Shown: in pieces, positions 3,081 through 46,279 of the stretch | Position numbering within the stretch: position 1 is the first letter of the stretch | How the letters are laid out: every line of letters begins with the position of its first letter | Source of the DNA: Tetmemena sp. SeJ-2015 | Lineage: Eukaryota > Ciliophora > Spirotrichea > Sporadotrichida > Oxytrichidae | DNA: 64,000 nucleotides | Reading direction: 5' to 3' | NCBI GenBank assembly: GCA_027382625.1 | Contig: JAJKFJ010020934.1 | Span: forward strand, 42,837 to 106,836 | Notes under the pieces: model-generated | Told to the model about the DNA's origin: nothing | Seen by the model: only the letters and a program-made list of their open reading frames with translations | The model's database searches: none | Translations under genes and position numbers: made by a program

Positions 3081-3440
3081 GAATACATTTAGGTGATTTC
3101 GAAAATAAAAACTCTAATATATTCAATTCTTTGGTTCATTCTAACTTAATATAATTTGCAAGTCTTTGGCGTAGGTTCTTGTTCTCTTCATTTAGTTCAT
3201 GTTTTATCTTTTATTACTTTTAGACATGCTTATTTACTCTTATATCTTATTTACATTCCCTCGCTTTGCCCTAAAGTTCATTTTAAGCATTAGTGCAGTA
3301 TATCTTACATTAGAAGAAAGGTAAGAGCACTCCCTCATGACTGTCTATGTCTGCTATCACAAAGACAGAGCTAATTTCTAGTATTTTCTTCAGTATTGAG
3401 AAGTTCCTTGCTGTTGGCTAATTTTAAAAACGAAATTTTT
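3081..3440. other. Interval before element 1: AT-rich sequence, then a probable MDS of the PAS gene
   Basis: From 3081 to about 3310 I see no convincing coding sequence. From about 3345 to 3424 one frame reads SMSAITKTELISSIFFSIEK and continues FLAVGQF, which looks like a coding block (MDS) of the interrupted PAS gene. It is separated from the upstream block by a TGA, so it would need another small IES. Element 1 starts immediately after this block. Confidence 0.4.
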
Positions 3441-3690
3441 GGGGGGTTGGGTCCCCCACCGCACGTGCGGTCCCGGCCCGGCAGGGGGGTTTCCCCACAC
3501 CGCACGTGCGGTCTGGGACATATGTGCGGTGTGGGGAAGTAGGTGGGTCCCCCACCGCACGTGCGGCTCCGTACCGCACATATATTGCCCCAGACCGCAC
3601 ATATATTTCAAGTCATCATAAATGTTCTCTGTATCTTAATCAACATGTTTCACACATAAATTTTAATTGGCTAGATTGGTGTTCTTACCT
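3441..3690 (+). repeat. Left TIR of element 1
   Basis: GC-rich outer part (3441-3605) with CCGCACGTGCGG near 3472, 3501 and 3556, and an AT-rich inner part (3606-3690). It is the inverted partner of about 7130-7439. Short translated runs such as CGPGP or RTCG repeats in this stretch come from the repeat, not from a gene. Confidence 0.8.
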
Positions 3691-4233
3691 TATTGCTGGT
3701 TTTTATGTTTAATGAGAAGAATATAAAATGAAATCAAGATGGATGACTTACCTTATTTCTGATCGGTTTGAGGTCCCCAACTACTACCACTGGTAAAAGG
3801 CCTAGCAGTATAAGTAGTAATCAATTACTTCAGTTAGCTTTTTCAGTTAGTAAAGTCCTCGGATCATTAAAGTGAGTTGATTGGATGAAGTTTTACTAGT
3901 TTAAATATATTTGATCACAGCCACTATGGCCACTCCTGAGTCTAAACACTAAAATCTCCCAGGCCTCATGATTACCCTATATGGATGTGATTCAGAGCTT
4001 GACTTCCCGGGAAAATTCACGTTGAAAATTGCCCATCCATCCGTGCCCATCTCCGATACTCCTATAGCTAGAAAAGAGTCAAGTAAAGTTTACCTGAAAA
4101 GGGGCCAAATATTCCCGATCCGAAGCGAGAAAGCAAGCCAACCTTTTGGATATCGACGCTTCGCTAAACCTCCCCACTCAATGGGAGAAAGGGAGGATTC
4201 TTGTATTCTCCCAGCGCTAGTCCCAGATAGCAT

Positions 4234-5238
4234 TCAAAGAAAAACCCTTACTTTCGCCACCTGCCAAAGGTTCTCTCTATATAACAAGCTTGGTTCAGCC
4301 ATACGCCCCAGGCTCCTCGTAGATCGTTATTTGCAATACTAGCGCTACATTTTGTCCCAGTGCCCCTCTTATTCCATCTTGGCAAGGTCCCCGACCTCGT
4401 TGAGATTTTCAAAGCTCACCCAGATAGTGGACTCGAGTCTGTGGCTCTTGAGCAGAGCCTCATTGATCTCTCGGAACAGGTAATCGTGCTCATCGAGAGG
4501 CAGGCTGGAATGGTCGAGTCCTAGATGTCAATAGTCTTTAACTCTCAATCAAAGATCTAGCCCCATAACCTCCTCCTACAGCACCTCTGCTATAGAGAAG
4601 ATGAGCATTTGGTCAGATGGCCGCAACTAGCTCACCACGTTCAAAGATGCTGCTATAAACTTTGTCATGCTGGCCCAGCTCTCCATAAACGCTTGGAATA
4701 GCTTAATTAGGTTCGAAGGAGGCTACCCTAAGTCAAGACGAGATACAACTCGCTACAGCAAAGGCTCTAAACCTGGAGGATTGTATAACTAAACAAACTT
4801 AAACCTTACTCCTATATAAGGAGGTCTCTAATGATGATTGATGCCGCCTTGAAGCCTCGAATAACCAATATCAAAAGTGCAAGTCCACCCATTTGAAAAA
4901 ATATTGAAGACGCAGATGTCGAGCTTTTATACCAACAAGTCTTTCGTGGCGTGGGGAAAGTACAAAAAATTTTTGTGCATTTGATCGTTGAGTACCATTA
5001 TGTCGAGCCCATATTTGTGGTTGCAATGCCAAGATTCTTGCATAAGCTCTGTTTAAAAGAAGATTAAAGCTTCAATTCCATCAAGGGCCTCGGTCAAGAG
5101 AAGAGAGGCAATTCTAAAGGGATACACTCAACAAAGATCAGGCCATATTCATTTACTCCAGTAGTCAATTGCAAGCAAGATGAATTTCATTCTTAGGAAG
5201 CGCAGACTTTTGTTCTGTTTAGCCTTTTTTTCATCCAT
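4234..5238 (-). pseudogene. Decayed ORF of element 1, function unknown (gene A)
   Basis: Reading the minus strand from an ATG at 5238 gives MDEKKAKQNKSLRFLRMKF and a long open stretch down to about 4548, broken only by two TGA codons near the start. A one-frame shift then leads into LDEHDYLFREINEALLKSHR and a downstream TGA at 4234. Amino-acid composition looks like protein on this strand, whereas the plus-strand ORF at 3968-4342 reads as its shadow. A phrase AIDYWSK near the N-terminus faintly recalls an integrase core, but no D-D-E set could be placed, so I do not assign a family. Confidence 0.4.
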
Positions 5239-5656
5239 TATAAATCAAATGTTCGAGTCCCGCAGCTACCTTAGGGCCCTGGGTGATGTGCGGGGAGGAG
5301 TGGCCTAGCATGCATCCCTTTTCCGGGGAGTGTGTTTTTCCAAGTTTTACACTCAATAAAAGTTTTGGTGATTCAAAGTGACCTGGAGTTTGGTTTAAAA
5401 GGGCGAATATCCCGTAAGAGCGAGACTAAGAGCAATACAAAGGATATCAGCAATAGGGACGACAGAGTATGAGAGAGTGATTATTATATTTAACTAAGTG
5501 CGTTTAAAAATCACCTAACTGATTCTAAGCAAATTACTCAGGTTGTGCCACTTCATTTTTTTTACCTTAATCGAGTGATGCAGGTGAAACCATACAGCTT
5601 AAAACTATAAGTTATCTCTATGTTCATTTATAATTATTAGTATAGTCTATAAAGTT

Positions 5657-6303
5657 ATGGATCCCTCGAATAATAAGACTTTCTTCTAGGTGAGCTCCTT
5701 TATCAAGAGTAAGAAGGAGCTGCATAAGGCCACACAGAAGAATGGCTACTTCTTGCCCAAGCTCATGAGTAAGGCAGTGGCCTAATAGAACCTACTGCAC
5801 GTGATTGTAGGCGTAGTTTGGTGTGCCCCGTATGAAGAATAAGACTACTGACTTGTCCCCTTCTCCCTCATCGGATATCTTATTTTCCAAGCCCTAGGAA
5901 GTTGCAAGGGGGGGACAAAGTGTGCATCTTGATGGATGAGTAGCAAATGGCTGATAGAGTGTGGCTCCTGACCATGCTTTCCATGTACAAGCCAGTCAAA
6001 GAGATCTTCAAGAAGGGGAAAAATTTTTCTGTTCAAGGTTTTCACTAGGCAGAGCCAGAAGACTGTGGATCTGTAGTGGAGCTTCCTTGAAAGGCAGCCT
6101 ATCTCCAAGACAAAGTCGAAGGCATAGTGATTTTTCTTCCTCAGCTAGAGCAAACAGTCGTAGAGGCTCCTACGCCTCAAGGACCAGAGGGTCAAGCTTG
6201 GCCTGCGTATGGAGACTCAAAAGATGTTAATAGCGTAGAGAAGGAAGAGCAAGCTGCAGCGACTATTTCGGAGGGTCAGTGTTGGGCCAGGCGGTCCTGC
6301 TGA
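5657..6303 (+). pseudogene. Decayed ORF of element 1, function unknown (gene B)
   Basis: The ORF starts MDPSNNKTFFQVSSFIKSKK with Gln from TAG, runs about 65 codons, then shifts frame into a second block (KVCILMDEQQMADRVWLLTM) and a third rich in Glu/Pro/Gln that ends at TGA 6301-6303. At least two frame changes or TGAs interrupt it. They may be small IESs or decay. I do not recognise the protein. It is probably transposon cargo or an accessory ORF because it lies between the TIRs and between two minus-strand ORFs. Confidence 0.4.
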
Positions 6304-6927
6304 CTCCCTTAGATGTACCAGTGCCGCTCGCCGTTGCGAATGTATGAGTAGCAGCTGCATGAGCGAAAGTATATCTCGTTCCTAAGGAAGAGCTTGGTTA
6401 GCGTGGCCGGGCAGACCCTGGGTGCATCTAATCGCACTTAGTAGAGTATTAGTCATTGCGCTATTTGAAGCTCGTGTATGCCATCTCTAGCAGGTTCTTG
6501 GCATAGGTGACGAGCGCCTCGATCTCACAGGGTATCTTCCGCACTCTTCAGTTCAATCTCCTCGATTCATGGATGAAATCGTTGCGGCGTTACCTCTGGA
6601 TGATCATCACGACAGTGCTGGCTTTGATGCTCATGGATTTGGCCACTTTATTGTAGCTGAGCAGGATTTTATGGTCATTGTAGACGGTCCCGTTGCGCAG
6701 CCTATGGCAAGTAACTACTGATCGGCTGTGTGCTTGGCTCTGATTCTCAGCTTCGGTGGACTCCACCTCTTTGGTAGGACTATAAGACTCGGACTACCCA
6801 TGCCTATAAAATAGGTTATGAGGTCTAGGTCTGGTATGTGAGGTGCGATATAGTTAAAGTTATCATAATATTAGAGGAACTCGACCAGATTCGGCTTGCA
6901 TTATCTGCTATCTTGAGTGGCGTTCAT
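6276..6927 (-). pseudogene. Probable Tc1/IS630-type transposase N-terminal region (gene C)
   Basis: The minus-strand ORF begins MNATQDSRQ. After a frame change it reads DHKILLSYNKVAKSMSIKAS followed by TVVMIIQRQRR, which looks like a helix-turn-helix of the Tc1/IS630 type. A further frame change gives ATLTKLFLRNEIYFRSCS and then RNGERHWYIQGSQQDRL, the usual linker before a DDE core. No DDE core follows on this strand; the next segment looks coding on the plus strand instead. It is therefore a truncated or broken transposase. Assignment rests on motif shape only. Confidence 0.4.
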
Positions 6928-7129
6928 TAATACAGATATTTCACACCTTACTATTAATTTAATACTAGAAATGAGTAACTACTCAATACTGATATAAACC
7001 AACTATTATTAGATATTATAAAATTTTTTATTGGTATAACTGCTTTTCCTAACATTTGTATATTGACAAATAAATTTATGACAATATACCAATGTTACAT
7101 AAAGTTTATACCCATTTAAATTTTTTTAA

Positions 7130-7439
7130 TAATATCTTAAGATAAGAAAACCAATCTAAGGCCCCATTAAAATTTATGTGTTTAAAACAGTTGATTAAGA
7201 TACAGAGAGCATTTATGATGACTTGAAATTTTATGTGCGGGCTGGGGGAATTATGTGCGGGACGGGCCGCAAAATTGCGGGGCCGGGACCGCACATACTT
7301 CCCCACACCCCCGTGCGTTTTGGGGCATATGTGCGGTGTGGGGAAAACCCCCGTGCTGTCCGGGACCGCACGTGCGGGTGGGCAAACCCTGTGCGGTCCG
7401 GGACCGCACGTGCGGTGGGGGGAAAAACCCCCCACCCCC
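7130..7439 (-). repeat. Right TIR of element 1
   Basis: Inverted partner of 3441-3690. The inner AT-rich part (7130-7225) matches the complement of 3606-3690; the outer part contains GTGCGG units and CCGCACGTGCGG near 7404. The two arms differ by small indels, so the element is not very young or the arms evolve by repeat slippage. Confidence 0.75.
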
Positions 7440-19360: not shown

Positions 19361-22300
19361 ATGCAAAAAGTAGAACCCCAAGGGAGCGTTCATCCCCACG
19401 ACAAGCATGAATAAACTATCCAAGATCTGACCAGTGAAGTAGATCTAAACGACGATGGCCCTATGGACTTAGTTGAACTTGTCCAGACAGAACTCTCCAT
19501 TTTTATTTCTAAACCTACAAAGAGGAACTAGTTTGGGAACACATTAACAGACAAAGAAAGTTTCAAGAGTCTTAGCTTAATATTTTTAGCATATAATTTT
19601 TAGTCCTACTGATAGATTGACTAGCGCTAATTAATACTACCACGAGGTAGCATACAAAGTCAATTTGAAACGTATGAACAATTTAACGATTTAAACTTCC
19701 CTTTAGACCTTTACAAAAAGATGGAGACGTGCTACTACAATGAAGAGCACGCTTACATTCCCGTCTTTATTATAATTTATGGAGCTGGGGGTAAAAGTGA
19801 TGATTGAGGCAAATAAAAATTGCAAATACATTATCTAGGTTTGGAACAAAAGCAAGGATATTCAGTTCTAACAGCCACTTCAGCGTAAATTATTAATCAG
19901 CTCAGTTCTGATCCGATTTGATAATTCATTCCACTAAACATTATCTAATAGGACCCATTGAAAGATTCTTATTTTTTAGATGGCAACAATGCTAGTCATT
20001 CGGACTCTATACCTTAAAAGAATATATTTTAAATTTTAGAATACTAAATTTAAAAAGAAGAAAAGCAGAACGTTCTCTATCTCATAGACTACGAATCAAA
20101 GACGTTGAAAAAATTGCGAAACCTTGCAATCCCATCTTAAAAGAGTATAGCTTTGCTTCCCTCATTTTCTTGTAGTGGAGTTTTTCAGCGTAAATTCTGA
20201 GTATCTGATACTCGCAACTGCCAATCAGATTTGCATCTACTGGTTCGGACAAATCACTAATGACGCAAAGTATCAAGAGGGAGAGATTGACTGCTCTAAA
20301 TTCAACTTTCAAATCCTTGAGACAAGACAGAGGATATTGGGGCTCTTTAACATGAACAGCGTAGACCCCGGATTCTACTAGAGTGATGCGCACTATGTGA
20401 TATTTGAAACCAAGGAATTCAAGCTAGATTTCAACCTAATTTAGCTTGAATACTATCCAAACTTAAAGAAATATTACTTCTATACAATATTAAACGAAGA
20501 GATGAAAGAATTTTTAGTTCAATTGAGGCAAATGTCTGATGTGAACCCCAGAGACGTATCTGGAGGAAAGCACACTCCAATTTATAGTAAACATTTATTT
20601 TAATTAGGAAGTTGTGCTACAAGATAGTGGAGAATAAGGTGTTTGCAATTACAGTGAGCGAAAGTAACAAAGCAGATCTCTACGCTAAAATGACTTTCCC
20701 TATTTTTTAACTTTTAAGCAACACATTGACTAAACGGTCTACGACGCAGAGATGAATCTATAAATAAATAGATGAGCATGTTGTCATTTTTCATTAAGCT
20801 TCAAGACGAAGCCCAAGCAGCAGAGGATAAAGAGAAAGAAGACGTTCCTCTTTAATAAAAAGAGGAATACTACTAAGGCAGAGGTCCTACTAAGTTTGAA
20901 CACTGGTATCCCTTATAATATTTTATTTGAGTTGGATAAATAACTTTGCAATTTACATTAAGCATAACGGAGTGGACAATTTCTCTTTTGAAAGCAAAGA
21001 TTATGTTTATGATGAGAAGTTTTCTCTAGAATAAGTGCAAGATAAAATCCTCTAAGACTATGAAAAATAAGTTTAAATTTTTAATGTCGACATCTTTTAG
21101 AGTTTCTTGATTCACAATGAGGGAGAGGATACGATCTGCCTAGTAAATTTAGAAAATTGGATTTTCAATTTAAATTTTGTTTTCTCTGATTAGCTCATGG
21201 AAAGTTCATATCTGCCTATGATATTTTGAGAGGATGCTATCTAGATAGACACCTGGTTTTGCCAAGCGAAATAGATATCTTGTTCCACACAGATAAGTAC
21301 GACTATTATAAAGTTAATGATTTAATGACTAAAATTATAATAAATATATTTTTGTAATACTCTTGGTGCACGGGGCGGAACTTGTGCGTGCTTTTGAAAA
21401 ATCTTTTGTATTTATTATTAATTCAGACGTGTACTACAACTTGATGGACAAGTTTAACTCAAGCGAAAAGATAGATTTCATAAAGGATGAGGAAACTAAA
21501 GGCCAAGAATGGGATAGTTTTGGCTTTGAGTATACTGGTACACAATATTTTTGTTGTTGTTGTTTTTAGGTACTCTTTACTTTGATGACTCTAAAGTAGA
21601 GAACGATACTTGGCTCCTAGTCTATAACTATGAAATCATTAAAGTATTGCACAGATAAACCATCTACCACAAGATCGTACTTCCCTCTCACCCTGTATAC
21701 AATAATTATAGTATCATCAGTAGCAAGGTACTTTTCTCTTGGTGAGTCTAATCAAAGCAATGAGCATCAGTTAAAAAAATAATTTGAAATTAGATTATTC
21801 GTTTGTTCTAAACAGTGATGGAAAGCATGTGCTTTGTAATTTGAAAAAGCCTGAGCAAGAAAGCCAGAACGCCAAATGCATCCAAAAGAAAAAGTTCTTG
21901 TACGATAATAGTGCCGACTATGACTATTATAATGGAACTAACTACGTTATCTATTTCAATTCTCACCCAAACTAGTACATAGCCTTAAATAAGAATGACA
22001 TTTATCTCAACAACGTGCAAGACCCAAGCAAATCTAAAGTGTTTGCAGGATACTAAATTGCTTCTTTCTAATTCATCACAGAGACCGTAAATTACGCCCT
22101 TTGCAGAGAAAGCCATAATTTATTACAATTAATATTCTCAGGCTCATGGGTTGATGCTTATTGACTTCAACTAAATGCTGAAAGATTCCACAATAGCTGT
22201 CACCGAGTTGAATGATAACGATGTTCCAATAGACCCTCAGCTAACTTAGTTTAACTCTTTAGAAAGAATCGGCTTCATGAACTCGGTCAACTAATTTTAG

Positions 22301-24106
22301 ATAAAGAAATGCATGTATATTATTCGTTCTAGTGCCTTATCTCCATTCAGATAGAATAGTGCTAATGGGCTATTAAACTATTCCTGACAGTTCTAAAGTC
22401 TTAGAGGCACAAATTGGACCCTTCTATAGCATGCTGACAATCAAGAACGAGTTAACTTTGTGGACGCTTTATAATGGCAAGCTATTATTTATATTCGACA
22501 GAGTCAAAGCTCATCTTCCATTTGATCTTTCAACTTATGAAAAATCCTCGAGTGCTTAGAAAGGTGTATCTACTTTATTCAAGGACGATAATTTCCCTCA
22601 TGATAATGCAGAAAATCGCCTGAACTAATTCTTCCCTGGTAGTCTCATGGAGCAAAGAGAAAACAGACAGAAGACAAGGACTGAACTACAGGTTCAAGGA
22701 ATTAAGGAATGGGTGGCCCTTAAGTTTTAAGACGAGCAGAAAGTTGACTTCATAACATTCGAGTTTCCTAAGTTTGAGGAAGGCAAAATGTACTTTAGCA
22801 ACGATTTTCAAACTCTTATTGAGGTGATTCAGGAAAGAGTTGTGCTGTATAATGCACTTAAAGTGTCTGCTGAAAATAGCAATAGAGTGACATGGCAGTC
22901 AGTTAGGATTTTCAACGACTATCCATCTTATATAGACTACATTAATCCAGAGTTATAATCTCAACCTCATGTACTCTCTCCCGATTTCAATCATAATTAA
23001 AAGTTAAATATCTTTAAGTGCTTCTTTTAAATATATTGATAATTTTATTTTAAATTATAATTTCAAGTACTACTTGAAATATAAGAAAGATAGAAGCCTA
23101 TTCGCTATCAGTTTTTAAATGGTTATAAATATTTTTGTGACAGCGGAGAGTTACTTGCAGAAATAGATGTTATAAATAAAAATGAAATTAAATTAGCATG
23201 CAATTTAAATAAAGCTGATCAATCAAAGTTAAAATATAGCTGATGAAATATTTTCTAGCTCTTCAAAAAAGAGAGACTAAGAATTAAATGGTCTTTATTT
23301 TTATGAATTTGATTATCATTTGATTTGAGCTAAAACGTAATTTCCTGGTATAATATTCTCTATGCCTCTGAAATGAAATTCACGAGAGGAGAAGCTAACA
23401 GATTCTAATGGATTTCTAATAACTCTTTCAAAGTTATGCATGCTGGTGGCTCTGAAGTCATCTTATGTTTAATTAATCTATGAAATTGATTCTCTCAATA
23501 AAAAGATAGTCGAGACTAAGTAAATTAAAAATACAATATAGCAGCTTATTAAATGAATCCAGCATGAATTTACAATGTGTGGCCATTGTTCGGCGAATAA
23601 TTTATTCAAGACATGTTTTAGAGAGAAGATATACCTTTCATAAAATTTTATTCTTATTGCTTTCTACTCTCTGATCTTGCAGGAAAACTTAGAAGAGGAG
23701 AAGTAACTTGAAAACTTAAAGCTCTCTTATCAAAAGTACAAGTCTGATTACTATCTTGAAAAGTATCCAGATCCCGAAACTAGATATCAAATGATTCACA
23801 CTAAGAATAAAGCTGACTGCTATGTCACACAGAGTTTCACCTATCTCTATTGGACTTTGATTGAGGATATTGAATACGAAAATGTGAAAGTGTCTGATCT
23901 CTCAGAGAAAATCATTGAAAGTATGGTCTACAACATATTTAATTAAATTGCTATTCCCAGGTGGAGACACCTTTATCCACATACTATCTACTGATATTAA
24001 AAAGGTCAAGAGTATTTATGAGAGGTGCCATGACCCGGAACTTGGAATAAAAATACATGTTCCATACCTGCCCAATAATAGCGGGGAAACATTCTTCTCA
24101 AAGGTC
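19361..24106 (+). CDS. TRP-like cation channel A, N-terminal part
   Basis: ATG at 19361 opens MQKVEPQGSVHPHD; blocks then follow on the plus strand in several frames, separated by short AT-rich inserts. The long N-terminal region contains WD/propeller-like phrases such as VFIINSDVYYNLMDKF and ENYWIFNLNF-type units and aligns block by block with channels B, C and D (for example LDLYKKMETCYYNEEHAYIP against LYKLVDTCTYHCDMPLIP). Near 23880 an ankyrin-like stretch begins (FPGGDTFIHILSTDIKKVKS, then NNSGETFFSKV) and is cut by the Merlin-like element at 24106. The propeller and ankyrin labels are inferred from pattern and confidence in them is modest; homology among the four copies is clear. Confidence 0.7.
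24099..24106. repeat. Left target-site duplication CAAAGGTC
   Basis: CAAAGGTC directly precedes the first G of the left TIR and recurs at 29527-29534 directly after the last C of the right TIR. Eight bases is the usual duplication for Merlin/IS1595-type transposons. Confidence 0.9.
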
Positions 24107-24434
24107 GGGGGGTGGGTCCGGCACCGCACGTGCGGTCTGGGGACCGCACATATTTGCCCAGACCGCACATACATTCCCCAGATTGCCCAGACCGCACATA
24201 ATTTGCCCAGACCGCACACACTTTGCCCAGACCGCACTTTCAAAACCCTGAGTGCCCAGACCGCACACACTTTGCCCATACCGCACACTCCAAACCCATT
24301 GTGCCCAGACCGCACGCACTTTGCCCATACCGCACTTACAAAACCCTGAGTGCCCAGACCGCACACACTTTCCCTAGAATACTCTTACACGTTAATAAAA
24401 TATTTATGATGGCACTATAATATAATGTCTAATA
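24107..24434 (+). repeat. Left TIR of element 2
   Basis: After the G-rich tip it has CCGCACGTGCGG at about 24125, then about ten CAGACCGCACA-type units at irregular 20-30 bp spacing to about 24370, then a unique 60 bp inner part. It matches 29199-29526 inverted with only scattered differences in the repeat zone. Confidence 0.9.
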
Positions 24435-24516
24435 AAAATATCTAGAATAAGTACACCACATCAATTTGAAAATATAATTTAACGGGCATGACATAAATTT
24501 TTTTCTTCTATAAAAA

Positions 24517-25146
24517 TTGGGGGGGGCCTTTCCTCGCCATCCATTTTTTCATGAAAACATGAACAATCATGATCTAACCAAAAATTAGACAAAAATAATA
24601 ATTTTTAGTCCAAAATCAAATTAAAATAGTCCATCTAAGCCATATTCTTTATTTTAGTATTTTAAGAAGATCTTTTAATGAACATTTTTTTTATGTGGAA
24701 AAATATTAAATTTCATAAGAATTGGAATATAAATAAAAACATTGGATGAATTTTATAAATTCTACAAAAATATTTCAGAAGCTCAGAGATCTCTCAAATT
24801 AAACATCAATTATTAGGATCTTATTTATTCTTAAAGAACCCAATAAAATAAAAGCTATTCTTTTATATAAATCTATTTACTTTTATTAAAACTACTTATA
24901 TTTGTATTCTATACTTTGTATATAAAATATAGCTAGTTTTTAATAAAATCTTCTGAAAGATAATTTAGAGACTTTTATTTAAAAAAAAGATTAAAGTTAC
25001 TTTCTAAAATAAAGAATATGGCCTGGATGGACCCTTTTAATTTGAACTAGGACTAAAACATTGTTGTCTTTGGCTAATTTTTGACTGAATCATGATTTTA
25101 AATATTGTCATGGAAAAAGTTGATGACGAGGAAAGGCCCCCCCCAA
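24517..25146. mobile_element. Nested MITE-like insert with long TIRs, 630 bp
   Basis: Left end TTGGGGGGGGCCTTTCCTCG at 24517; the inverse of this sequence ends at 25146. Homology continues inward for about 150 bp per arm (both contain a variant of CCATATTCTTTATTTTAG). No ORF was found, so it would need a transposase from elsewhere. Flanking A/T-rich bases do not show a clear duplication. Confidence 0.75.
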
Positions 25147-26087
25147 AATTTGCATTTAGTAAATAATAAGACTTACTGTAAAACTAAGCATTATTAATTT
25201 GAAATACAAAAATTTATTAATTAAAAGTAACAATTAAGTCTTTATATTTCATCAAAAGTGATAATATCCAGTAGAATTATATTCTAACAAAAAGCAAAAC
25301 AAGTGAAACAAGAAAGGTAGCCTTTTTTAACCCTTAAAAAAAGGAAAAAACTAAAGATGATGCTTTACTGAAGATACCAAATTTTATTAATTATTTATAT
25401 ATGTAAATTTAATGATAGGTGTAAATTATTTTTTTGTGATCTAAAGGGAAAAAAAACGTAATAATATGTAGTATAATTCTTAATATTAAGGAGACATAAA
25501 ATTAGATTATAAAACAGTTTATGTGTAAACATTTTTAAAAATAAAATGTTCGATAAATAAATTTTATTCATAGATTACTAATAACATAAAGTACGTCAAA
25601 ACTATAGACTAATGTGTGATAAGTTGCGTTTATAAAAGCTGCATTCTGTTTTTACTTTGAAGTATCTGTACGACATATATAAATGCGATTAGCTACGGAA
25701 ATCATAACATGTGCAAATACTAATAAGTCTCTTCAATATATTATTGAAAATAATTTTAAAATACGTAAATTTATAATTATTTACAATAGTTGATATAGAA
25801 ATTTTTAACTTACAATTAGAGATATAAATAATAATGGTTAAGATATTTTATCTTGGAAAATTAAAGGTAAAGAGAGGAGTGAGAAAGTTTAAGTAATGAT
25901 TTTTTTCCCTTTGATGAAGATAGCAAGAAAAGATAAGCTGCTACATATAATAAATAATCTTTACATGTAAAACATAACCTCTAACATATAAATACAATCT
26001 TAAATAATAAAAAAAAATATCCACATACAGTAAATAAATATAATTCTATCTAAATTTTTAACTAATTATTATTATAATTTTAATATA

Positions 26088-27331
26088 TTGCAGTCTATCG
26101 TTTGTGGTATTAAGCATGCGCAAATTGCGACGCCACAAAGCTTCAAATAAGAAGTGTTCTATTTAATCGGGGTCTCCTGGGAAGGAATTGTACAAATGGC
26201 GACAATGGTATTATAGGGTACCCCAAAGTCCCTCTATGAGGTTGGAGTGTAACATAGTTCTCTATTCCCCTGTTAAATAGTAATATTTTATGAGACACTA
26301 GGCCAATTAATACTGAAAACTAAAATTTTTACAGTAATATTTAAAGATTATATAAAATTTGTTGGTGTATTGTGTATGTGTCTTGTATGAGTTATATTCA
26401 TATCAGCCCAAGGTACAGCTAAGTACGATAAATGTCCGTCATGATCAACATGTGAACCAGGGGAAACATTGTCGCGAATAAGTTCGGTAAAAGTTGCAGC
26501 TGTTCTATTTTCAATTCGCATTATCTTACACCTTTGAGTATAATAATATAAATTTTAATGTTAGCACGTTCTTCCACCAACCCAAATATCCAAATCTATC
26601 TCTCGTGTCTTCGTAACGGTTCATCATAAAATAAAATAGTACGAAATGCTGTTGTGAGTCCACATAATAATATAACTCTAAATATATATAGATATATATA
26701 TATAAATAATCGCTTTCTTTATTTATTGATAAAATAAGTGTGTGCCTCTTATTGTGTGGATAGTTGAATTTTAGAAGTTCTAATCTTAAGTAAATATAAT
26801 ATGCTTTTCTAATGTACGCAAATTGGTGTATAACATAACTTTGAACGACTTGTTAATTATGTAATGTATTTTAAATTATTTTTGTAAGCTTACATAAAAT
26901 ACTCTTGCATTTTTAGTTAATCTGAATGTTAAAATTATATTTATTTTATAATGTCATAAACAAATTAGGATTTTGTCACATTAATAGATAAAATAGCACT
27001 ATTTAAAGAGCACATGCTCTCATCTACCTGGATTCTTAAATTTATTATTCAAAATCCATCAATAATAAAATTATATTCTTCCTTGTAACATGAAGCTCTA
27101 TTACTCCTCTTAGTATCTTCTGTAAATTGCCTTTCTTAAGACCTAAAAAATCTTGCCAACTGCCTTCCTAAAGTAACTAGCTAATACAACAACAAAATTT
27201 TAAAAACCTTAGGTTTACTTGTAATGCATCCGTAACGCATTTTCAGGATAATAGGCAATTAAAAAATATAAATATGGTACATTTTACACTAATTCTGTGC
27301 TGTTACAGCCATTAGGGAAGTATATATAATA

Positions 27332-27363
<32 letters not shown>

Positions 27364-28382
27364 TTGCTTGTTCAATGGCAATTTCATTATAAATTATAAC
27401 CTGACAATATTTAACAAAATTATGTGTTTAACATAACGATTTATATTTTATTTAGATGGAAAGTATTCCTAAAGGACATTGCAAAGAATAACCACATCCC
27501 AAGTCCTTGGGCAATATATCAAGAGTCCATGCTTAATTGACTACCGACTTCTACATTTGTATTGTTCACATTATTTTTTAGTAATCGTATGTATTTAATT
27601 TATTAACAATTATTAGTGAAAATTACTAAATGAAATGCTTTAATTCAAGAAGATGCCTCTAATATTTTAAGCATCTTTAAAATTGCGTGCCTGATAAAAA
27701 AAAGCAATTTACATTTTATGTTGTGCAAATCATAAATTAACCATAAATTAGTTCAATTGAATAACTTTCTTATATTTATGTTCTCGCATTCCTTAGGTTA
27801 TAAAACATTAAACTCGTGTCATTCGATGCTAAATATTTTGCAATAATTTTTTCTTATTTTGGATCCGTATATATGTGAACATATGTATATATATATATAC
27901 CTATAAAGATATTTACTTTTTTCATTTGTTTTTATATAGTACATAATATATTGACATTCGTAAGCGGTGCTATCTTTATACCCGTGCCGTTTAGAGTCAC
28001 AAATAATTGCGCGTCCATCACAGTTCAACATTGTTTTAAATATATATGTGGATTTATCATTAAATTAAATTAATGTTATTATACATCATAATATAATAAT
28101 AAGTTTAAAATTATTATTTGTTTAAAACTTTTTATTTTTTTAACTTTCACATATAATGATATATATATAGTAGTAGCTAATCAGTGTTATCAGGAAACAT
28201 TTTTTAGCCCGACAGATTTTACCCCCCTTTGGAATAAAATTATATATAATATATATATATATATATTTATATAAAATAATTTTATACATTTTGCACGGTA
28301 AGCTTTCATAAAGCAATCCGAGATCTAGCAAATATTGTATCGCACAACTTGTTCTTTCCATGCTCGCTTTTTCTCTTTCCAT
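26088..28382 (-). pseudogene. Merlin/IS1595-like transposase, fragmented
   Basis: Cut-and-paste DDE transposase of element 2, read on the minus strand with TAG as Gln. N-terminal block at 28382: CAIQYLLDLGLLYESLPC, then at 28031 a block CDGRAIICDSKRHGYKDS, matching the zinc-ribbon and basic region of this family. The core block at 26521 is NRTAATFTELIRDNVSPGSH followed by VDHDGHLSYLAVPW, the segment around the second catalytic residue, with H..H spacing after it. The last block, near 26276, is SNLIEGLWGTLQYHCRHLYN and FLFEALWRRNLRML, which holds the catalytic Glu. The first catalytic Asp was not located; the block near 27570 (VEVGSQLSMD) is a weak candidate. Blocks are separated by AT-rich gaps that could be introns, IESs or decay. 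Confidence 0.7.
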
Positions 28383-29198
28383 GGTTAATGATATTATATT
28401 ATCAGCAGCTATTACTTTTATTTTTCAATTAAAATTTATCATACCTAGACAAGTATTTATATCCGCAATAATTGGAATTTTAAAATTATCATTAGTGCAA
28501 ATCTGTTTTTACACTTAAAACTTGTTTTTAATTTAATCATAATAGTATATACTTACATAAAATAAAAACATAAACGATTATAAATATTTTTTATAAAATT
28601 TATTAAATACATTGATTTATAATGTACTCATGAATACATATATAATAAAATTTAGAGACAGTTGATTAAATTTATTTGGCTCCTAACCACAAAAGGAAGC
28701 ATTAAGTTGTTGAAAAAACTTTAAATAATATTTTTGGCGCTACTATATATTATATAAAATTAAGATTTAATAAAATCTTTTATTAATTATCATTTATGAA
28801 CTATAAATTTCTTCGTTTATTCCAACATTTATTAATACAACTTGATTCGTTGGATATTTATTAAAGCTATTTTAATGCTTGTTATAATATATCATAATAA
28901 GTAACAGGACTTAGACTGTCTAAAATATACCCCTGCCAACATTATCTTCAGTATCATGCTTGTTTAATTAATTTGAGTAAAATAATAATTGACTGTATCA
29001 CTTTAGAAAAGAAATAAAGTGCATACGTATCAATTTTAATTTATAAATTTATGAATATCAAATTATTTATGTTATATTATACGAATAGTCTTATTAACAT
29101 TTACAGGAAATTTTAAATAAAAAATTTTATTTTTATAGAGAATGCTCTTGAAATTACATATTTTTTTTGGTGTACGGGATGTATTATATATATATATA

Positions 29199-29526
29199 TA
29201 TTAGACATTATATTATAGTGCCATCATAAATATTTTATTAACGTGTAAGAGTATTCTAGGGAAAGTGTGTGCGGTCTGGGCACTCAGGGTTTTGTAAGTG
29301 CGGTATGGGCAAAGTGCGTGCGGTCTGGGCACAATGGGTTTGGAGTGTGCGGTCTGGGCAAAGTGTGTGCGGTCTGGGCACTCAGGGTTTTGTAAGTGCG
29401 GTCTGGGCTAAGTATGTGCGGTCTGGGCAAAGTATGTGCGGTCTGGGCAATCTGGGGAATGTATGTGCGGTCTGGGCAAATATGTGCGGTCCCCAGACCG
29501 CACGTGCGGTGCCGGACCCACCCCCC
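29199..29526 (-). repeat. Right TIR of element 2
   Basis: Inverted copy of 24107-24434, with GTGCGGTCTGGGCA units and a terminal CCGCACGTGCGG near 29500. Apparent ORFs through this stretch (repeats of VCGLG or AVWA) are produced by the tandem repeat. Confidence 0.9.
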
Positions 29527-29534
29527 CAAAGGTC
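29527..29534. repeat. Right target-site duplication CAAAGGTC
   Basis: Second copy of the 8 bp at 24099-24106. The codons AAG GTC within it encode the K-V that joins the two halves of channel A. Confidence 0.9.
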
Positions 29535-32137
29535 TATGCAGGAGGGAAAGAGACTACAGACAGAAAGCAAGTTTTCACAATTTTGCAGTATTTGAAGCTC
29601 TATGGAGTCGATCATCATTCAAGGTGTCTCAGAGAATTTTATGATGAGATCATTGCAACTAAGAACCAGATAGCTCTAGATTATTTGAAGAATATTTTAA
29701 CTTTTTGGAGTCACGCTTTTAGTAAACAGATGAACTTTCGGAGTTTAATCAGGGAGTAATATCAGGAAATAAGAAGATCATTTCAACTCCAAAGCTACAT
29801 GAAGAATAATATAAAAGATATGTAGATGGGGAAGCCTCAAAGTATAGGATGGTAAAACTAGAGATCTTAGATATACCGCAAGTGTATCATTACCAAGACC
29901 CGAACTTCAAAAAGATTTTCAGCGAACTTAGCACACATGAGAGCTATGAATTCTTTAACAATAAAGCAATCTAAGCGCTTATAGATCTGAATTATCCTTT
30001 AGTCAGAAACGCTATTTTGATTAGACTCATTATACCCTTCTTCATCTTCCATGTTCTATATGTATGCTACACTAACATTCTTTAAAATAGAATATTCATG
30101 CTCATGTTTATCTCATTATCAAATAAATTGTCTATGAGCATAGAAATGATGACGATAGTTACAAGAACGCTAACATTACTATTGGTGCTATCATTTTAGC
30201 TTTCAGTGCCTACTTCTTGGGGAACGAAGTGAGACAAGTCTGGAGTTTAAAATTAAGCTATTTCGCATCTTTTTGGAACTACATTGATATTCTTGCTCCT
30301 TGCTTTTATTTATCTTTGTGATAGTGCAGTAGGCTCTACAATTTGCTGAGTTGAATGAAGTTAGAGATATCGATGACACAGTCAACACTAATATTTTATT
30401 TAAATTTTTAACAGAGTTTTCCTAAGTTTAGCCACTTTACTGATGTGGGCCAAGTTCTTGTCAATTTTCAGAGTATTTGACTCAACAAACTATTTGATTA
30501 GAACTATTTACGAAGTGATCTATGATATGGGAATTTTCCTGTTCGTGCTGTTGATCACAGTCGCAGGTTTCGGAGATTCGTTCTTGAGACTATCCCTTGG
30601 AAATGAAGAAGATAACCAGTTTACAACTTCTTTCGTTCCTGCAGTGCTGTATACTTATTCAATGATCTTAGGAGGGTACGATACAACTGCATTTGGTGAT
30701 GTTGCAAATAGCCTAGTATGGATTTTGTGGATTCTTTGCACTATCTTCGATATGATAGTTATGCTCAATCTACTTATTGCTATAATCTCAGAGACCTTCG
30801 GTAAAGTTAATGAGAATCAAACTGGGGCAAGTTACCAAGAGAAGGCCTGCATCATTTCAGAGAACGTGTATTTGATTCCTCAAAAGCAAAGAGAGAACTA
30901 CGTCACTAAGGGAAGATTCATTATAGCAGGAGAAGACATTGAAAAGGGCAACTAAGTTTTAATCTTACTGTTATATTGATTTGTTTCATTTTTAGTTATA
31001 GACGAGACAGAGAAGAGATTCAATGATTTGAATGAATTATGTGGCACGATAAAGACTATTATTAAAGAGAACAACTAGAAGATGATTTATTATGATTGAG
31101 TAGGAGCAGGCCAAAGAAAAGAAGCAAGATGAAATCAATTCTCAGATAATCAAGCGTATCGGAGAGATCAAACTTAGCATGCTTAAGCAAACGAGAACGT
31201 CAAAGACAGAAATCAGAATCCAGTAGCACAAAAGAAAGCTAGTCAAGCTACTATTAGCTGAGGTGCAAGAGCTCCATCCTGATGAATACTAGTTCTGGAA
31301 CTGCGGAGCCAAGCGCTTCGTGTAATGTAAAAATCCAGAAATTACTTATACTCAAATATATTTCTTAGGAAGGTAAAACTGAGCAGCAGTATCAGGACGA
31401 GCTAGCAAAGGAGGTAGATTAATTTTTAAAGGTGATTTATCACTGCGAAAAGTGCCTGTTCGATTTCTGTGCTGTCTGTATGAAGGAGTATCCAGACGCT
31501 CACTCTCATGAATTAGAAAAGCTTACTTGGGGAGAACTGATGTTATTTTATTTTAGAAATTATTTTATTATACTGAGAGTGAAGAATACGGCTTACGAGA
31601 CAGGTTGGGGATGTAACGGAAAGTAAAATTAATTAATGAGAGTGAGTTTGATTTGATATTAGCATTTAGGTTTATTTCTATCAGTGCACAAGAGGTGCCG
31701 AGTTGGATAACGGAGATATTTATGAGGAGTTGTACCATGACGAGAAAGAGCAGTTCGATATGTGCTTGGAGTGTGGTGACTATTACCAGAGGTGGTATGC
31801 GGATGAAAATCAGAGTGAAATTGCAGAGGAGGGAGAGGAGGATAGCGATTAAGACGATTAATCTGAGAACAGCTAAAAAGAAGCAGCCGTTTAGAACAAT
31901 GAATAGCCCAATTTAAATATCATTTTATCACTTAAAGTTATAGTTAAAAATTTATTAAATTTTACTTAGAAAAGTTCTCATAAAGCAAAATTTAAATTTA
32001 TAAAATTTTGCAAAATTTAAACTTAATCACAAGAATACACTTCTATTAATGTTTATTGTACATAATAAAATTCTCAATCCTTCTTTTTATTTTAGTTTAA
32101 AATTTACTTTATAGTAAAATTGTTTATTAGTAAATGA
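29535..32137 (+). CDS. TRP-like cation channel A, C-terminal part
   Basis: Continues VYAGGKETTDRK, then GVDHHSRCLREFYDEI (aligned with YPVDHHSRTLK in channel B). Helices follow (ILIRLIIPFFIF-type near 30020-30130, AYFLGNEVRQV near 30210), then the block 30443-30955 with the last helices: MGIFLFVLLITVAGFGD, pore segment SMILGGYDTTAFGD, and S6 FDMIVMLNLLIAIISETFG, a TRP/ion-transport signature. A short coiled coil follows, then a cysteine-rich region (FWNCGAKRFVQC, YHCEKCLFDFCAVC, CLECGDYYQ) resembling a ZZ/DC1-type zinc finger, and an acidic tail. The stop used is the first in-frame TGA, 32135-32137, but the true end could be earlier if another IES intervenes. Confidence 0.8.
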
Positions 32138-42430: not shown

Positions 42431-43465
42431 ATGAGGAAGCAGGCACTGATACCATAGCTGTCCAAGCTCATAATCTTGCTCAGGTTCAGAACTTTGAAGC
42501 CCACAGCCGAGAGCTTGGTATATTGCTCCTTCTCAGAGATCCGAGCTGCTACTGGAGTTGGAGTGTATTCCATCTAGAGAGTCTGCAGGGGAGCTCTCGC
42601 CCTCACCATGGAACTGTGCCTGGGACCCAAGTCTAGGTCGCCATCGACCTTTGAGCACTTGTGCTACCTTCTGAATGACCACACTCTGGCAGAGCAGAAG
42701 CACTTCTCCCTCGCTCAGCGATGCTTGATGCTCCATCGCAGGCACCCCAAAGTGAGACTCTGCAAGGGCTCACTGCGAAACATCTATTTTGTGTATAGCA
42801 TAAAGTTCAAGGTGACTAGGAGTGACTACAGTTTGAGCCAGCACAAGCAGGAGGAAATACTGAGGACACAAATTTGCATGTACAGAAAGATGCTCGCGAG
42901 CTGGAGCGAGAAGGCGTACATCGTCTACCTCGACGAAACGATACCAAGCCGTACCATGCCAGCATCAGGTCTTGGGTGAAGCCTTACCAAAATTAAATGC
43001 TTCACAAGGAGGGGATTAAGCTCGACACCATGGCTGCTCTCGTGATGATAAGCTCGCACACAGGCTTGGAGGTGTTCACCCTCCGTGAGATGATGATCAC
43101 CATAGAGATCATCGCACGCGAGCTGAAGCTGCTTCAGTTGCGTCATCCACAGGAAAGGATCTAGTTGTTCCTCGACAACCTCAGAGCACATCACTCTCGA
43201 TCGGTCGCCCAGGCTTGCTCTGAGGTAGGCATAGAGCTTATCTTCAACGCTCTACTCCTCGTGCTTCAACACAATAGAGGAAGTGTTTAGCAGAGTGAAA
43301 GGCCACTACAAGCGGGCACTCGTGCGAGAGAATTTCAGGGTGAGCCAGGCCGATCACATAGCCATCATAGCTGGCGCTATTCGGTCGATAGAGAAACTGG
43401 ACTGCCAACGCACCATAGCACGTGGCCTCTGGAGAATGGAAGACGGAGTCATTGAGTTTGAGTGA
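42431..43465 (+). pseudogene. TBE 42 kDa-type transposase (Tc1/IS630-like DDE)
   Basis: From ATG 42431 (MRKQALIPQ). The DDE triad is visible: IVYLDET (first D, about 42920), LFLDNLRAHHS (second D, about 43165) and NTIEEVFSRVKGHYKRAL (E, about 43275), with SWVKPYQ between them. The order and spacing match Tc1/mariner/IS630-type enzymes, which TBE transposases belong to. It needs one-base-type frame corrections near 42945 and 43250 to read through, so this copy looks inactive. In oxytrichids such transposases take part in genome rearrangement (established knowledge); nothing here shows that for this copy. Confidence 0.8.
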
Positions 43466-43515
43466 TTAGGATTAATTTTAAAAGCAACTTAAGCTTAACT
43501 ACTCTATTTTAAACT

Positions 43516-44291
43516 TCAAGCCATCATCCTCTTAGCGGGAGGCGACCTAAGTAGTCCCATCTCTACGTCAAGGCGCTTCAGCTCACCAATTCCGTTCCCT
43601 GCCATCAGGCTGTCTTCCCCTGGTCCCTCGTAGCCACAGCTGATCTCAAATCGCTTGCGCTTTTTCTAATGGCGCTTCTCAGTAGAGGTCACCTTCAGCA
43701 ATGCCAGGGCTTTCCCCTTCTTTTCTAAAGCATAAACCTAGGTACCCAAATTCTTAATCGAGTAGTATGGCTGAGCCTCAAGACTTCGAAGCACTCAGGG
43801 CAAGCATCGATAGTGTCAAGCTTCTCCTCGAGTATGCCTGACATTCTGAACTATTGCTGTGTGTGGACGAGCTTCTACAGGAAGTCTCCTCTGAGAGTGC
43901 CGAGTATGGATAACATGTAGCTGCGTTCAGGCAGCTCGCCCATGTCCTCGTAGTAGTTGAGATAGCTCAGGATCTCCTTATCCCCTCGCATCATCTTGAA
44001 GATGTTAGCCACAAAGAGTTCAGGGTAGTTTGGAATGTTGATTTGGGTGAGCTCAGCAGTCCTCATCAGTAGCTTCTACCCTGAGAGTAAATTTATTAGG
44101 AAGCGGAGGCTGGTCCTCTTCAAGGAGGGAAGGTGAATGCCAGCTATAATAGCTTAAGTAGATTACTTACCTTGGAACTTGAGATATGAGTAGAGGTCAC
44201 CCTTGGAACTGAACTTCGATTATAGCTGCTTGCTACTGACGATGTGAGTCTGGTTGATGCTCGTGTGAGCTCTCTGGTTGAAGTTCATCAT
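43516..44291 (-). CDS. TBE 22 kDa-type ORF
   Basis: The minus-strand ORF begins MMNFNQRAHTSINQTHIVSS; a GTAAGT..TAG intron-like gap sits near 44145-44170. The main block has MRTAELTQINIPNYPELFVA and FKMMRGDKEILSYLNYYEDM. A frame change near 43760 leads to EKRHQKKRKRFEISCGYEG and TGA at 43516-43518. Size and position between the transposase and the zinc-finger/kinase ORF fit the TBE 22 kDa protein, whose function is not known. Confidence 0.65.
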
Positions 44292-44578
44292 GACTAGAGT
44301 CAAGTCCTTTCTGTCTTATCCTCCTTTAAAATAAGTTAAAGTCTTAATTAATTGAAGTTACATAAGCTTAAATTAGAGCTTGGGTACTTGATAGTAGAGC
44401 TATCTCAATTAACTAAGCTAGCGAACTAAGTTAGGCTAACATAAACTTAAACTTGTGTCCCCGAAGCTGCACTGCGATGTAATGTAAAATCTAGGATTGG
44501 CAATGTATAAGTTGTTTTGGCTGTCTGTAGCGAGCTCAAGTCTCTTGCATGGCTTGAAACTCTAAAAATAAATTAGAG

Positions 44579-46279
44579 ATGAAAATGGATGTTTTCAACC
44601 CCAAAAAAGAGATGATTTAGGATGTTTTTCTTACATTGAGGAAAATGAGAGAGCGCTATAGTCAAGTTGTGACTGAGTAGTGTGCCTTCAAAGCTATCTC
44701 TCTTATGGTGACTAAAGTTTAAGTACCTGATTATTTAATAGGTATATTTTACTTTTTAATATGGAGAGCGCTAACCAATCGCAAGGCGTAGACAGTAATA
44801 CACAGTGCACTGAGCCTATGAGTCCTCGGCACAATTATAGCTGCAGCTTTGCTTGTCAAGGAAACACAGTGCCTTATCAACGAAAGCGGGGACAGCAGGG
44901 CTATGACGATTGGCTGGAGGAATGGCTGTCGGAAGAAGAGGATAGGGAAGCGGGAAGGCCCAACGGCCCAGGCTTCTTCTCAGGTGAACGCATTGCCACA
45001 AAGTCTACAAGCCCAAAGAGTTTAAGAGGCGCGCCGTGGTCCATGAGCGCACCTCGGGCTTCTACCAACAATTAAAAATCAGAGGCACATATTATTGCAA
45101 GCTCTGCAATAATGAAGAGAGGGGGTTCCCAACTTCTCGTGCCCTCAAGGCGCACCTAGCTAGCCATCGTAAGGAGGATCTCAGGCACTCTGGATACAGC
45201 CCTCTTGTCGTGAAATAGCTTAAGATCGAACCTGCTCCCTTAACCGCTCCTAGACAAGACGCGATCGCTCCAGAAAAAGTTATCCCATGATGGCTCGCAT
45301 TGGTTTTTTACGTAGCTCTTGATCTCAGCAGAAGATTGTGAAGTCAAGCCGCCATGCTTGCTAGACCAACCTAGCCAGGCCCCTGTGCAGGAGTTCCATC
45401 ATTAATTAAAACCCGAAGAGCCACAACTCTGTCATTATTAAGGAGGCCTCTTCGTGAGGACCAGTGAAAGTATCGCCCGAGCACTGGATGAGCTAGAAGT
45501 CCCAATTACAATTCGATGGGAGCTCAATACGATCTTGGAGCACATAGCATAGGCTGGAGGCCTCTACTTGGAGCAGCCTCAGAAGCATGAGGAGACTCAA
45601 AGCACAATTTGCGTTTCAGTAAGTAGGTCTTGCAAGAAGATGCTGAGAGCATGATGAGGGTGTTCAATGATTTCAAGGTAGCCACCTATCACAGGCAAAA
45701 GGGAGTACAAGGTCTCGACGAGATCAGGCAGGTCTACAACTGGCTGGATGGGGTACTATTCATCTACAGAGAGTATAATTATAACTTCGCAAGGTTCACA
45801 CAGAACCCCGTCCAGCACTGGATGCTCATCGAGGTGCTTGGTATGATGCTCAGCATAGTTCAAGCAGTGCATCAGCAGGGGGTGACGCACCGCTGTCTCA
45901 GCCCTTCCTAATTTCGCTTAATAGGAAAGACCCCGCCCTAGGTCTTCCTGTGCAACTTTCGCAATACATGCAAGACTGGCTAGGAAAGCCTGGACCAGTA
46001 GTTGCCACCCATTCTTTGGGTCAAGCATCGCGAGGAGGCAGAGGTGCTAGCTGCCAAGGCCTCGTTTGACATCTACTGCATGGGCCTCATTGTCTTCAGT
46101 GGTTTCCTCAAAGACACTCTCCTCTCACTCACCACACATAATGGGTCGTTCACACATCCTTAAGGCTGCAGTACATAGCTTCGGGTTACACCAAGAATCA
46201 GAGATTGTTCATAGACGACCTCATTAAATTGAAAGAAGTAAGCTTGACCCTAGACGACATTGCAATTAAACTCAAGTAA
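44579..46279 (+). pseudogene. TBE 57 kDa-type zinc-finger/kinase ORF
   Basis: Starts MKMDVFNPKKEMIQDVFLTL, or at the later ATG 44761 (MESANQSQGVD). A C2H2 finger is clear at about 45090-45170 (YYCKLCNNEERGFPTSRALK then AHLASH). Downstream is a degenerate protein-kinase-like part: QAVHQQGVTHRCLSPSQF in the catalytic-loop position, CNFRN where DFG is expected, then FDIYCMGLIVFSGFL and LFIDDLIKLKEVSLTLDD. The catalytic Asp of the kinase loop is replaced, so it is probably not active. Frame changes occur near 44985, 45610 and 46150. No TGA closes it before host channel B sequence begins, indicating a truncated 3' end. Confidence 0.7.

Follow-up and report, generated by a model that had tools for sequence, protein, structure and literature searches.

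A Merlin/IS1595-superfamily transposon with an 8-bp target-site duplication inside a ciliate channel gene

Structure of the element and its target site

Analysis of a stretch of 64,000 nucleotides (C2013:42837-106836, here called the window, whose positions are used throughout) revealed an element of 5420 bp at 24107-29526 that belongs to the Merlin/IS1595 superfamily and lies within a gene that encodes a polycystin-type channel. The assembly searched comprises 146.2 Mb in 5213 contigs, and the window copy of the element is referred to as W. The features of the element and its target site are as follows, TIR standing for terminal inverted repeat and TSD for target-site duplication.

24099..24106, + strand: left TSD copy CAAAGGTC, abutting the left TIR
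24107..24444, + strand: left TIR, 338 nt, starting GGGGGGTGGG, with nine GCCCA(G/T)ACCGCAC repeats
26084..28382, - strand: transposase gene in conserved blocks, with AT-rich stretches between them
29189..29526, - strand: right TIR
29527..29534, + strand: right TSD copy CAAAGGTC, abutting the right TIR

The two arms are 98% complementary, each opens with six G's and each holds nine copies of the internal repeat; an earlier note on this DNA had placed TIRs correctly on both sides, giving their length slightly short at 328 bp. The GC content is 0.51 in the left arm, 0.244 in the interior of the element and 0.33 and 0.35 in the flanks. On the + strand of the window the octamer CAAAGGTC has just two occurrences (24099 and 29527), directly outside both arms, and forms a perfect 8-bp TSD. 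When the element and one TSD copy are left out, the host sequence is joined in frame (..NNSGETFFSKV|YAGGKETTDRKQVF..), so that both the duplication and the in-frame join reported in the earlier note are borne out.

The interrupted channel gene

Regarding the host gene, a match to Ion_trans (E=2.2e-8 on 30377-30979) agrees with the channel identity proposed earlier, and the channel is of polycystin type. Alignment with homologues indicates that the frame of this gene changes in the window because of five short pieces. Once the element, a single TSD copy and these pieces are taken out, 23728-30946 gives 556 codons with no stop, and the product shares 57% identity with Stylonychia lemnae protein P0001 over 355 amino acids with one gap. 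The published S. lemnae genome is reportedly macronuclear. The features of the gene are listed below, IES standing for internal eliminated sequence.

23728..30946, + strand: interrupted channel gene, part, 556 codons after removal of the five pieces, the element and one TSD copy
23940..23955, + strand: IES-like piece, 16 nt, repeat TATT
29688..29707, + strand: IES-like piece, 20 nt, repeat TTTG
30080..30129, + strand: IES-like piece, 50 nt, repeat ATT
30307..30317, + strand: IES-like piece, 11 nt, repeat CTTT
30387..30412, + strand: IES-like piece, 26 nt, repeat AAC

The pieces are AT-rich and 11-50 nt long, each with a direct repeat of 3-4 bp at its flanks, and GT..AG boundaries were found in none of the five when every register of the repeat was checked. 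In-frame GT..AG alternatives are absent at joins J2, J4 and J5, while those at J1 and J3 would cost residues that S. lemnae conserves; an intron of 40 nt with GT..AG ends, at 23921-23960, was dropped on the same ground, since it too would take away residues conserved among the S. lemnae proteins. The direct repeats, the restoration of frame and homology and the lack of spliceosomal boundaries are all features of IESs, and the host gene therefore reads as a germline gene that probably carries them.

A germline origin is also suggested by the contig itself. The passages of PMC9797194 describe hypotrich macronuclear genomes as consisting of short, mostly single-gene chromosomes, and the contig, being 107 kb long with several genes, is therefore read as micronuclear. 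A search for the C4A4 telomere pattern gave 21 matches, spread over 3 contigs, and the reversed control gave 28, a result that speaks neither for nor against the presence of macronuclear contigs. Clustered C4A4 telomere-like repeats lie at C2828:3860-4156, perhaps marking a telomere-bearing element (TBE).

The organism is a Stylonychia-like spirotrich ciliate. Six public proteins related to the joined channel frames were found among 7995 candidates scored, four of them from S. lemnae, one from Halteria grandinella and one unnamed, and a non-ciliate host was rejected. This point was checked because reading of TAA and TAG as glutamine is also used outside ciliates. For an epimerase open reading frame (ORF) the best named match is from S. 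lemnae (67%), ranking after an environmental sequence at 91%.

An empty copy of the site and the age of the insertion

The same site is found without the element on contig C4021. All 1006 bases of the joined flanks align with C4021:2897-3900 (96%), and the two blocks aligned on C4021 have exactly the 8 bases of CAAAGGTC in common, which is thus present there as a single copy. C4021 is colinear with window 21304-31918 (93-97%) and then with 48.4-57.7 kb (86-97% in the longer blocks), skipping the middle tandem gene copy; its first 563 bases are unmatched in the window, and past base 18000 there are only short scattered matches. All five short pieces also occur on C4021, one of them with 1 difference and another with 3. 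C4021 is another germline copy, either an allele or a paralogue, and not a macronuclear contig. Window 21300-57700 is a tandem array of paralogous channel genes, each split into short frame segments, of which C4021 has one copy fewer.

Over the 556 codons the window copy and C4021 differ by 33 synonymous and 2 nonsynonymous changes, with no stops and no gaps, and the ratio of nonsynonymous to synonymous rates (dN/dS) is 0.015. A channel pseudogene was rejected on the low ratio and the absence of stops, which also support the position of the element within coding sequence under selection. Insertion into an older IES was rejected, C4021 being continuous coding sequence at the site.

The presence of the same gene and pieces on C4021 without the element shows that the insertion is young. 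The left arm is identical to that of a copy on C3293 at all but 1 of its 338 positions, and within the first 1045 nt the two copies show 4 mismatches and 2 gaps. The arms of the window element differ from each other at 8 positions, two of which are common to C2750 and therefore older than the insertion, and the right arm of the C3293 copy shows 12-18 differences from other arms; because some differences predate the insertion and this right arm is so divergent, counting arm differences dates the insertion poorly. An age of 0.2-0.45% is estimated from those changes that only the window arms carry, compared with 10% synonymous divergence from C4021. Had the window gene been dead since the insertion, an estimated 4-6 extra nonsynonymous changes would be expected, against 2 seen in all; this leans towards continued function of the window gene without establishing it, decay-based tests of function being weak for so young an insertion.

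Assignment to the Merlin/IS1595 superfamily

The Merlin/IS1595 membership proposed in the earlier note holds and depends on the joining of pieces. A profile search with a single minus-strand ORF gave 15.2 bits against PF12762 (DDE_Tnp_IS1595), below the cut-off of 27, whereas the joined minus-strand blocks gave 32.5 bits (E=1e-7, residues 14-147); against the NCBIfam IS1595 equivalog model the joined blocks gave 28 bits and did not reach its cut-off of 75. A genome-wide PF12762 search found 12 other places above the cut-off, the window element being absent from them because its blocks are split. Of 11 IS1595 loci read, those usable for comparison were L009, L013, L015 and L017; the other 7 gave unrelated peptides, most likely through reading of the wrong strand. 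The catalytic residues of the window element (minus strand; first D at 27022-27024, second D at 26438-26440, E at 26232-26234) align with those of the IS1595 ORFs L017 and L009 of the same genome. Unlike the split window gene, L009 (C2848:25728-26084) and L015 (C3127:43624-44064) are IS1595-type transposases in unbroken frames, of 481 and 475 amino acids. No relative of the joined transposase was found at E<=1e-3 among 98 public-protein candidates. Pfam recognised no family, and no zinc domain, in the N-terminal 59 amino acids, so that the zinc ribbon named earlier is not upheld. The IS1595 domain of the joined blocks, the D/D/E residues, the 338-nt TIR with terminal GG and the 8-bp TSD, within the 8-9 bp typical of the superfamily, together identify the element as a member.

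The split transposase gene

The conserved blocks of the transposase gene lie on the minus strand at 28293-28382, 27954-28022, 27080-27175, 26551-26625, 26360-26521 and 26084-26267, in different frames and with AT-rich stretches between them, both in W and in another copy, L028. Comparison of W with L028 over 193 codons in five blocks gives a dN/dS of 0.137, which argues against decay; block A was excluded because L028 has one extra base there, within a T run, and may carry a frame break. Three of the interruptions, Ja, Jb and Jd, are common to three diverged copies, namely W, L028 and one on C1757.

At Ja, which lies just before the first catalytic D, removal would take place at AAGAAT in W (43 nt), AGAA in L028 (39 nt) and TTCAA in C1757 (52 nt), and exactly three residues are left between the anchors in all three copies despite the different repeats. 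No other repeat is as long in W (shuffle p 0.007) or in C1757 (p 0.025), and the one used in L028 (p 0.061) ties for the greatest length. In-frame GT..AG options for Ja are absent in W and C1757, and the one in L028 changes the peptide. At Jd, which precedes the catalytic E, a GT..AG option was found in none of the three copies; the repeat is not clear-cut here, being TTTAA in W, while a longer repeat in L028 yields another peptide. At least Ja and Jd are read as probable IESs within the transposon gene, and DNA elimination may be needed before the transposase can be read. The idea of a 26-nt IES separating blocks B and C was abandoned, as the piece is unchanged between W and L028 and is read through, with a longer peptide, in C1757.

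Alternatively, the interruptions may be unusual introns or marks of decay rather than IESs, which we consider a sizeable possibility, though less likely than not. At J0 and Jb the choice of repeat is ambiguous, Jc retains an unexplained frame change, and block A of L028 is one base off in length; in-frame GT..AG options exist in single copies (J0, Jc and Ja in L028, Jb in W), and a potential intron is described in the transposase ORF of the Paramecium element Anchois in the passages of PMC3464196. None of the five junctions, however, offers a GT..AG option common to two copies within the 25-45 nt of the anchors that were searched, the constant three residues left at Ja through three different repeats also tell against this reading, and the dN/dS value tells against decay in particular.

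Other copies of the element in the genome

Searching the genome with the left arm gave at least 44 matching stretches, the window's own two arms counted (42 further); this is a lower bound, 40 of 142 candidates having been scored, and the figure includes fragments of a single copy as well as matches on near-duplicate contigs. The top five matches, the window's own two among them, show 98-100% identity and are not due to chance. Twenty stretches were taken, and the TSD test was applied to the 12 of 21 sources (window included) that apparently hold both ends. Paired ends were obtained for all but L026, and an exact direct repeat of 7-9 bp, a few bases' slack being allowed, was present at the ends in 7 of these 11 pairs (the window, L024, L027 with 7 bp only, L028, L029, L032 and L033). 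The search for further germline copies and flanking repeats proposed in the earlier note thus revealed a family. The span is merely 1.5-3.1 kb in 9 of the 11 paired copies.

Matches to the transposase region were found on C3534 and C4005 (77%, with equal scores), on C2750 (two partial copies), on C1757 (99 bases) and on C2916 (two short stretches). The two partial copies on C2750 (L025, C2750:1-5392) adjoin each other in opposite orientation. The copy on C3293 has the TSD CTTTCTAA or CTTTCTAAG and, without one TSD copy, its flanks join in frame inside an ATG-initiated stretch as read by eye, another frame being open further; it is a possible second insertion into coding DNA. A genome search for an empty site of this copy returned only the copy's own two flanks.

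Fate of the element during development

The element transposed recently into a macronucleus-destined coding segment of the channel gene in the micronuclear genome, creating the CAAAGGTC duplication, at a time when the gene was already split by at least five short putative IESs. During macronuclear development it would then be removed together with these IESs, the CAAAGGTC pair acting as a pointer and leaving one copy and an open frame. In Oxytricha, RNA from the old macronucleus guides the new one in the choice of DNA to retain and in its joining; under guidance of this type, any insertion that the old macronucleus lacks would be deleted, beginning with the first generation. The transposase gene, being split by IES-like pieces, would be readable only once DNA elimination has begun. 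Precise developmental excision of the element at CAAAGGTC is likely, because the gene already appears to need five pieces removed and because full-length transposons occur as IESs in Paramecium according to the passages of PMC3464196. More tentatively, and with a little less than even expectation, we suggest that the transposase gene is IES-split and readable only in the developing macronucleus, when its internal IESs are gone and the element is still in place; transposition and self-removal would thereby be tied to genome rearrangement, and use of the TSD as pointer would make new genic insertions harmless from the start.

Several points weigh against excision. The sequences of this organism compared here are germline only, from which excision is inferred. 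A direct repeat and frame-keeping removal are found at CAAAGGTC, but they are expected for any transposon insertion too: removing the element and one TSD copy restores the old frame after any cut-and-paste insertion that makes a TSD, and the restored frame therefore shows insertion into coding DNA and not excision. The frame-restoring removal put forward in the earlier note consequently loses its force as evidence of excision, and its description of a clear case for the transposon-to-IES model is too strong, as the empty copy C4021 offers another route to a working gene and could supply the channel function. The repeats at the five channel pieces are individually weak (shuffle p 0.022-0.083), and the joins were picked with the repeats in view. 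No TSD was found in 4 of the 11 paired copies (L030, L031, L034 and L041), and the insertion is too recent for selection to discriminate.

The strongest alternative to excision is that a young Merlin element killed this gene copy in an ordinary disruptive insertion and is not precisely removed, or that the copy is lost from the soma, C4021 or the tandem paralogues supplying the channel. This explanation has a substantial chance of being correct, though clearly a smaller one than excision. The empty copy lies in the same assembly, so that a working channel is possible without excision from the window copy; paralogous channel genes are present within the same window, and the near identity of the left arm to that of C3293 marks the element as young. 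On the other side, the window gene shows no stop and fewer nonsynonymous changes relative to C4021 than estimated under neutrality, which is a lean and not a test, and it would already rely on the precise removal of five other pieces. A false joining of the element into the contig by the assembly is very improbable, as near-duplicate contigs do exist (C3534 and C4005 with equal scores) but a perfect 8-bp TSD and two flanks colinear with C4021 are unexpected from such a join.

Comparison with known systems

The comparisons that follow refer to the cited passages of each source. Merlin/IS1595 elements are characterized by a DDE_Tnp_IS1595 domain, TIRs of 24-462 bp starting with GG and an 8-bp TSD (PMC8101967), and the window element shares the domain, a GG-starting TIR within this size range and the TSD. 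An N-terminal zinc domain is present in bacterial IS1595 members and reported lacking in Merlin (PMC8101967); as in eukaryotic Merlin, none was recognised here. Of 33 ciliate genomes, 24 are reported to contain Merlin-related sequences on the basis of tblastn, and the curated ciliate Merlin, from Stentor, has no conserved TIRs or TSDs (PMC8101967), in contrast to the TIRs, TSDs, empty site and split transposase gene described here. In Blepharisma, DDE_Tnp_IS1595 (Merlin) domains, shared with the window element, are reported from a ciliate germline and soma comparison; the family there rich in miniature inverted-repeat transposable elements is Pogo/Tigger with a TAA TSD, and, unlike here, no Merlin inside a gene is described in those passages (PMC9942856).

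The Oxytricha TBE elements are likewise DNA transposons of the germline that lie within or close to macronucleus-destined DNA, and their genes are under purifying selection even in frame-broken copies, for which the authors suggest a correcting mechanism; unlike the window element, they belong to the Tc1/mariner superfamily and have telomere-bearing TIRs and the TSD ANT (PMC4724952). In Paramecium, Anchois and further IESs that are mobile or derived from transposons are full-length or nearly full-length transposons eliminated as IESs, resembling the fate proposed here, but they are Tc1/mariner (ITm) elements with TA boundaries, and their excision was measured whereas ours is inferred (PMC3464196, PMC8354472).

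Merlin sequences in ciliates (PMC8101967, PMC9942856) and Tc1/mariner transposons as IESs (PMC8354472, PMC3464196) are already in print, while the open-licence literature searched gave neither a TIR- and TSD-bearing Merlin within a germline gene of a ciliate nor an IES-split transposase gene. The five short putative IESs of the host gene and the IES-like interruptions of the transposase gene go beyond the earlier note. The proposed descent of IESs from transposons rests mostly on Tc1/mariner elements, and a young Merlin with an empty germline counterpart, in a gene that appears to bear IESs, would offer a direct test case for precise removal of another superfamily at its TSD. If the transposase gene is truly IES-split, this transposon would have come to need DNA elimination in order to be expressed, and an explanation of this kind might extend to the frame breaks of further germline transposons, for instance those reported in TBE elements.

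Other GC-rich stretches in the window

Two further GC-rich stretches were observed in the window. That at 43000-46000 (GC 0.42-0.50) is without long inverted arms and has long ORFs without Pfam matches. The other, at 3440-7434, is a second GC-rich inverted-repeat element, in which the ORFs gave no Pfam match; it has the same kind of CCGCACGTGCGG arms, the outer arms being 88% and the inner 40-nt arms 98% complementary.

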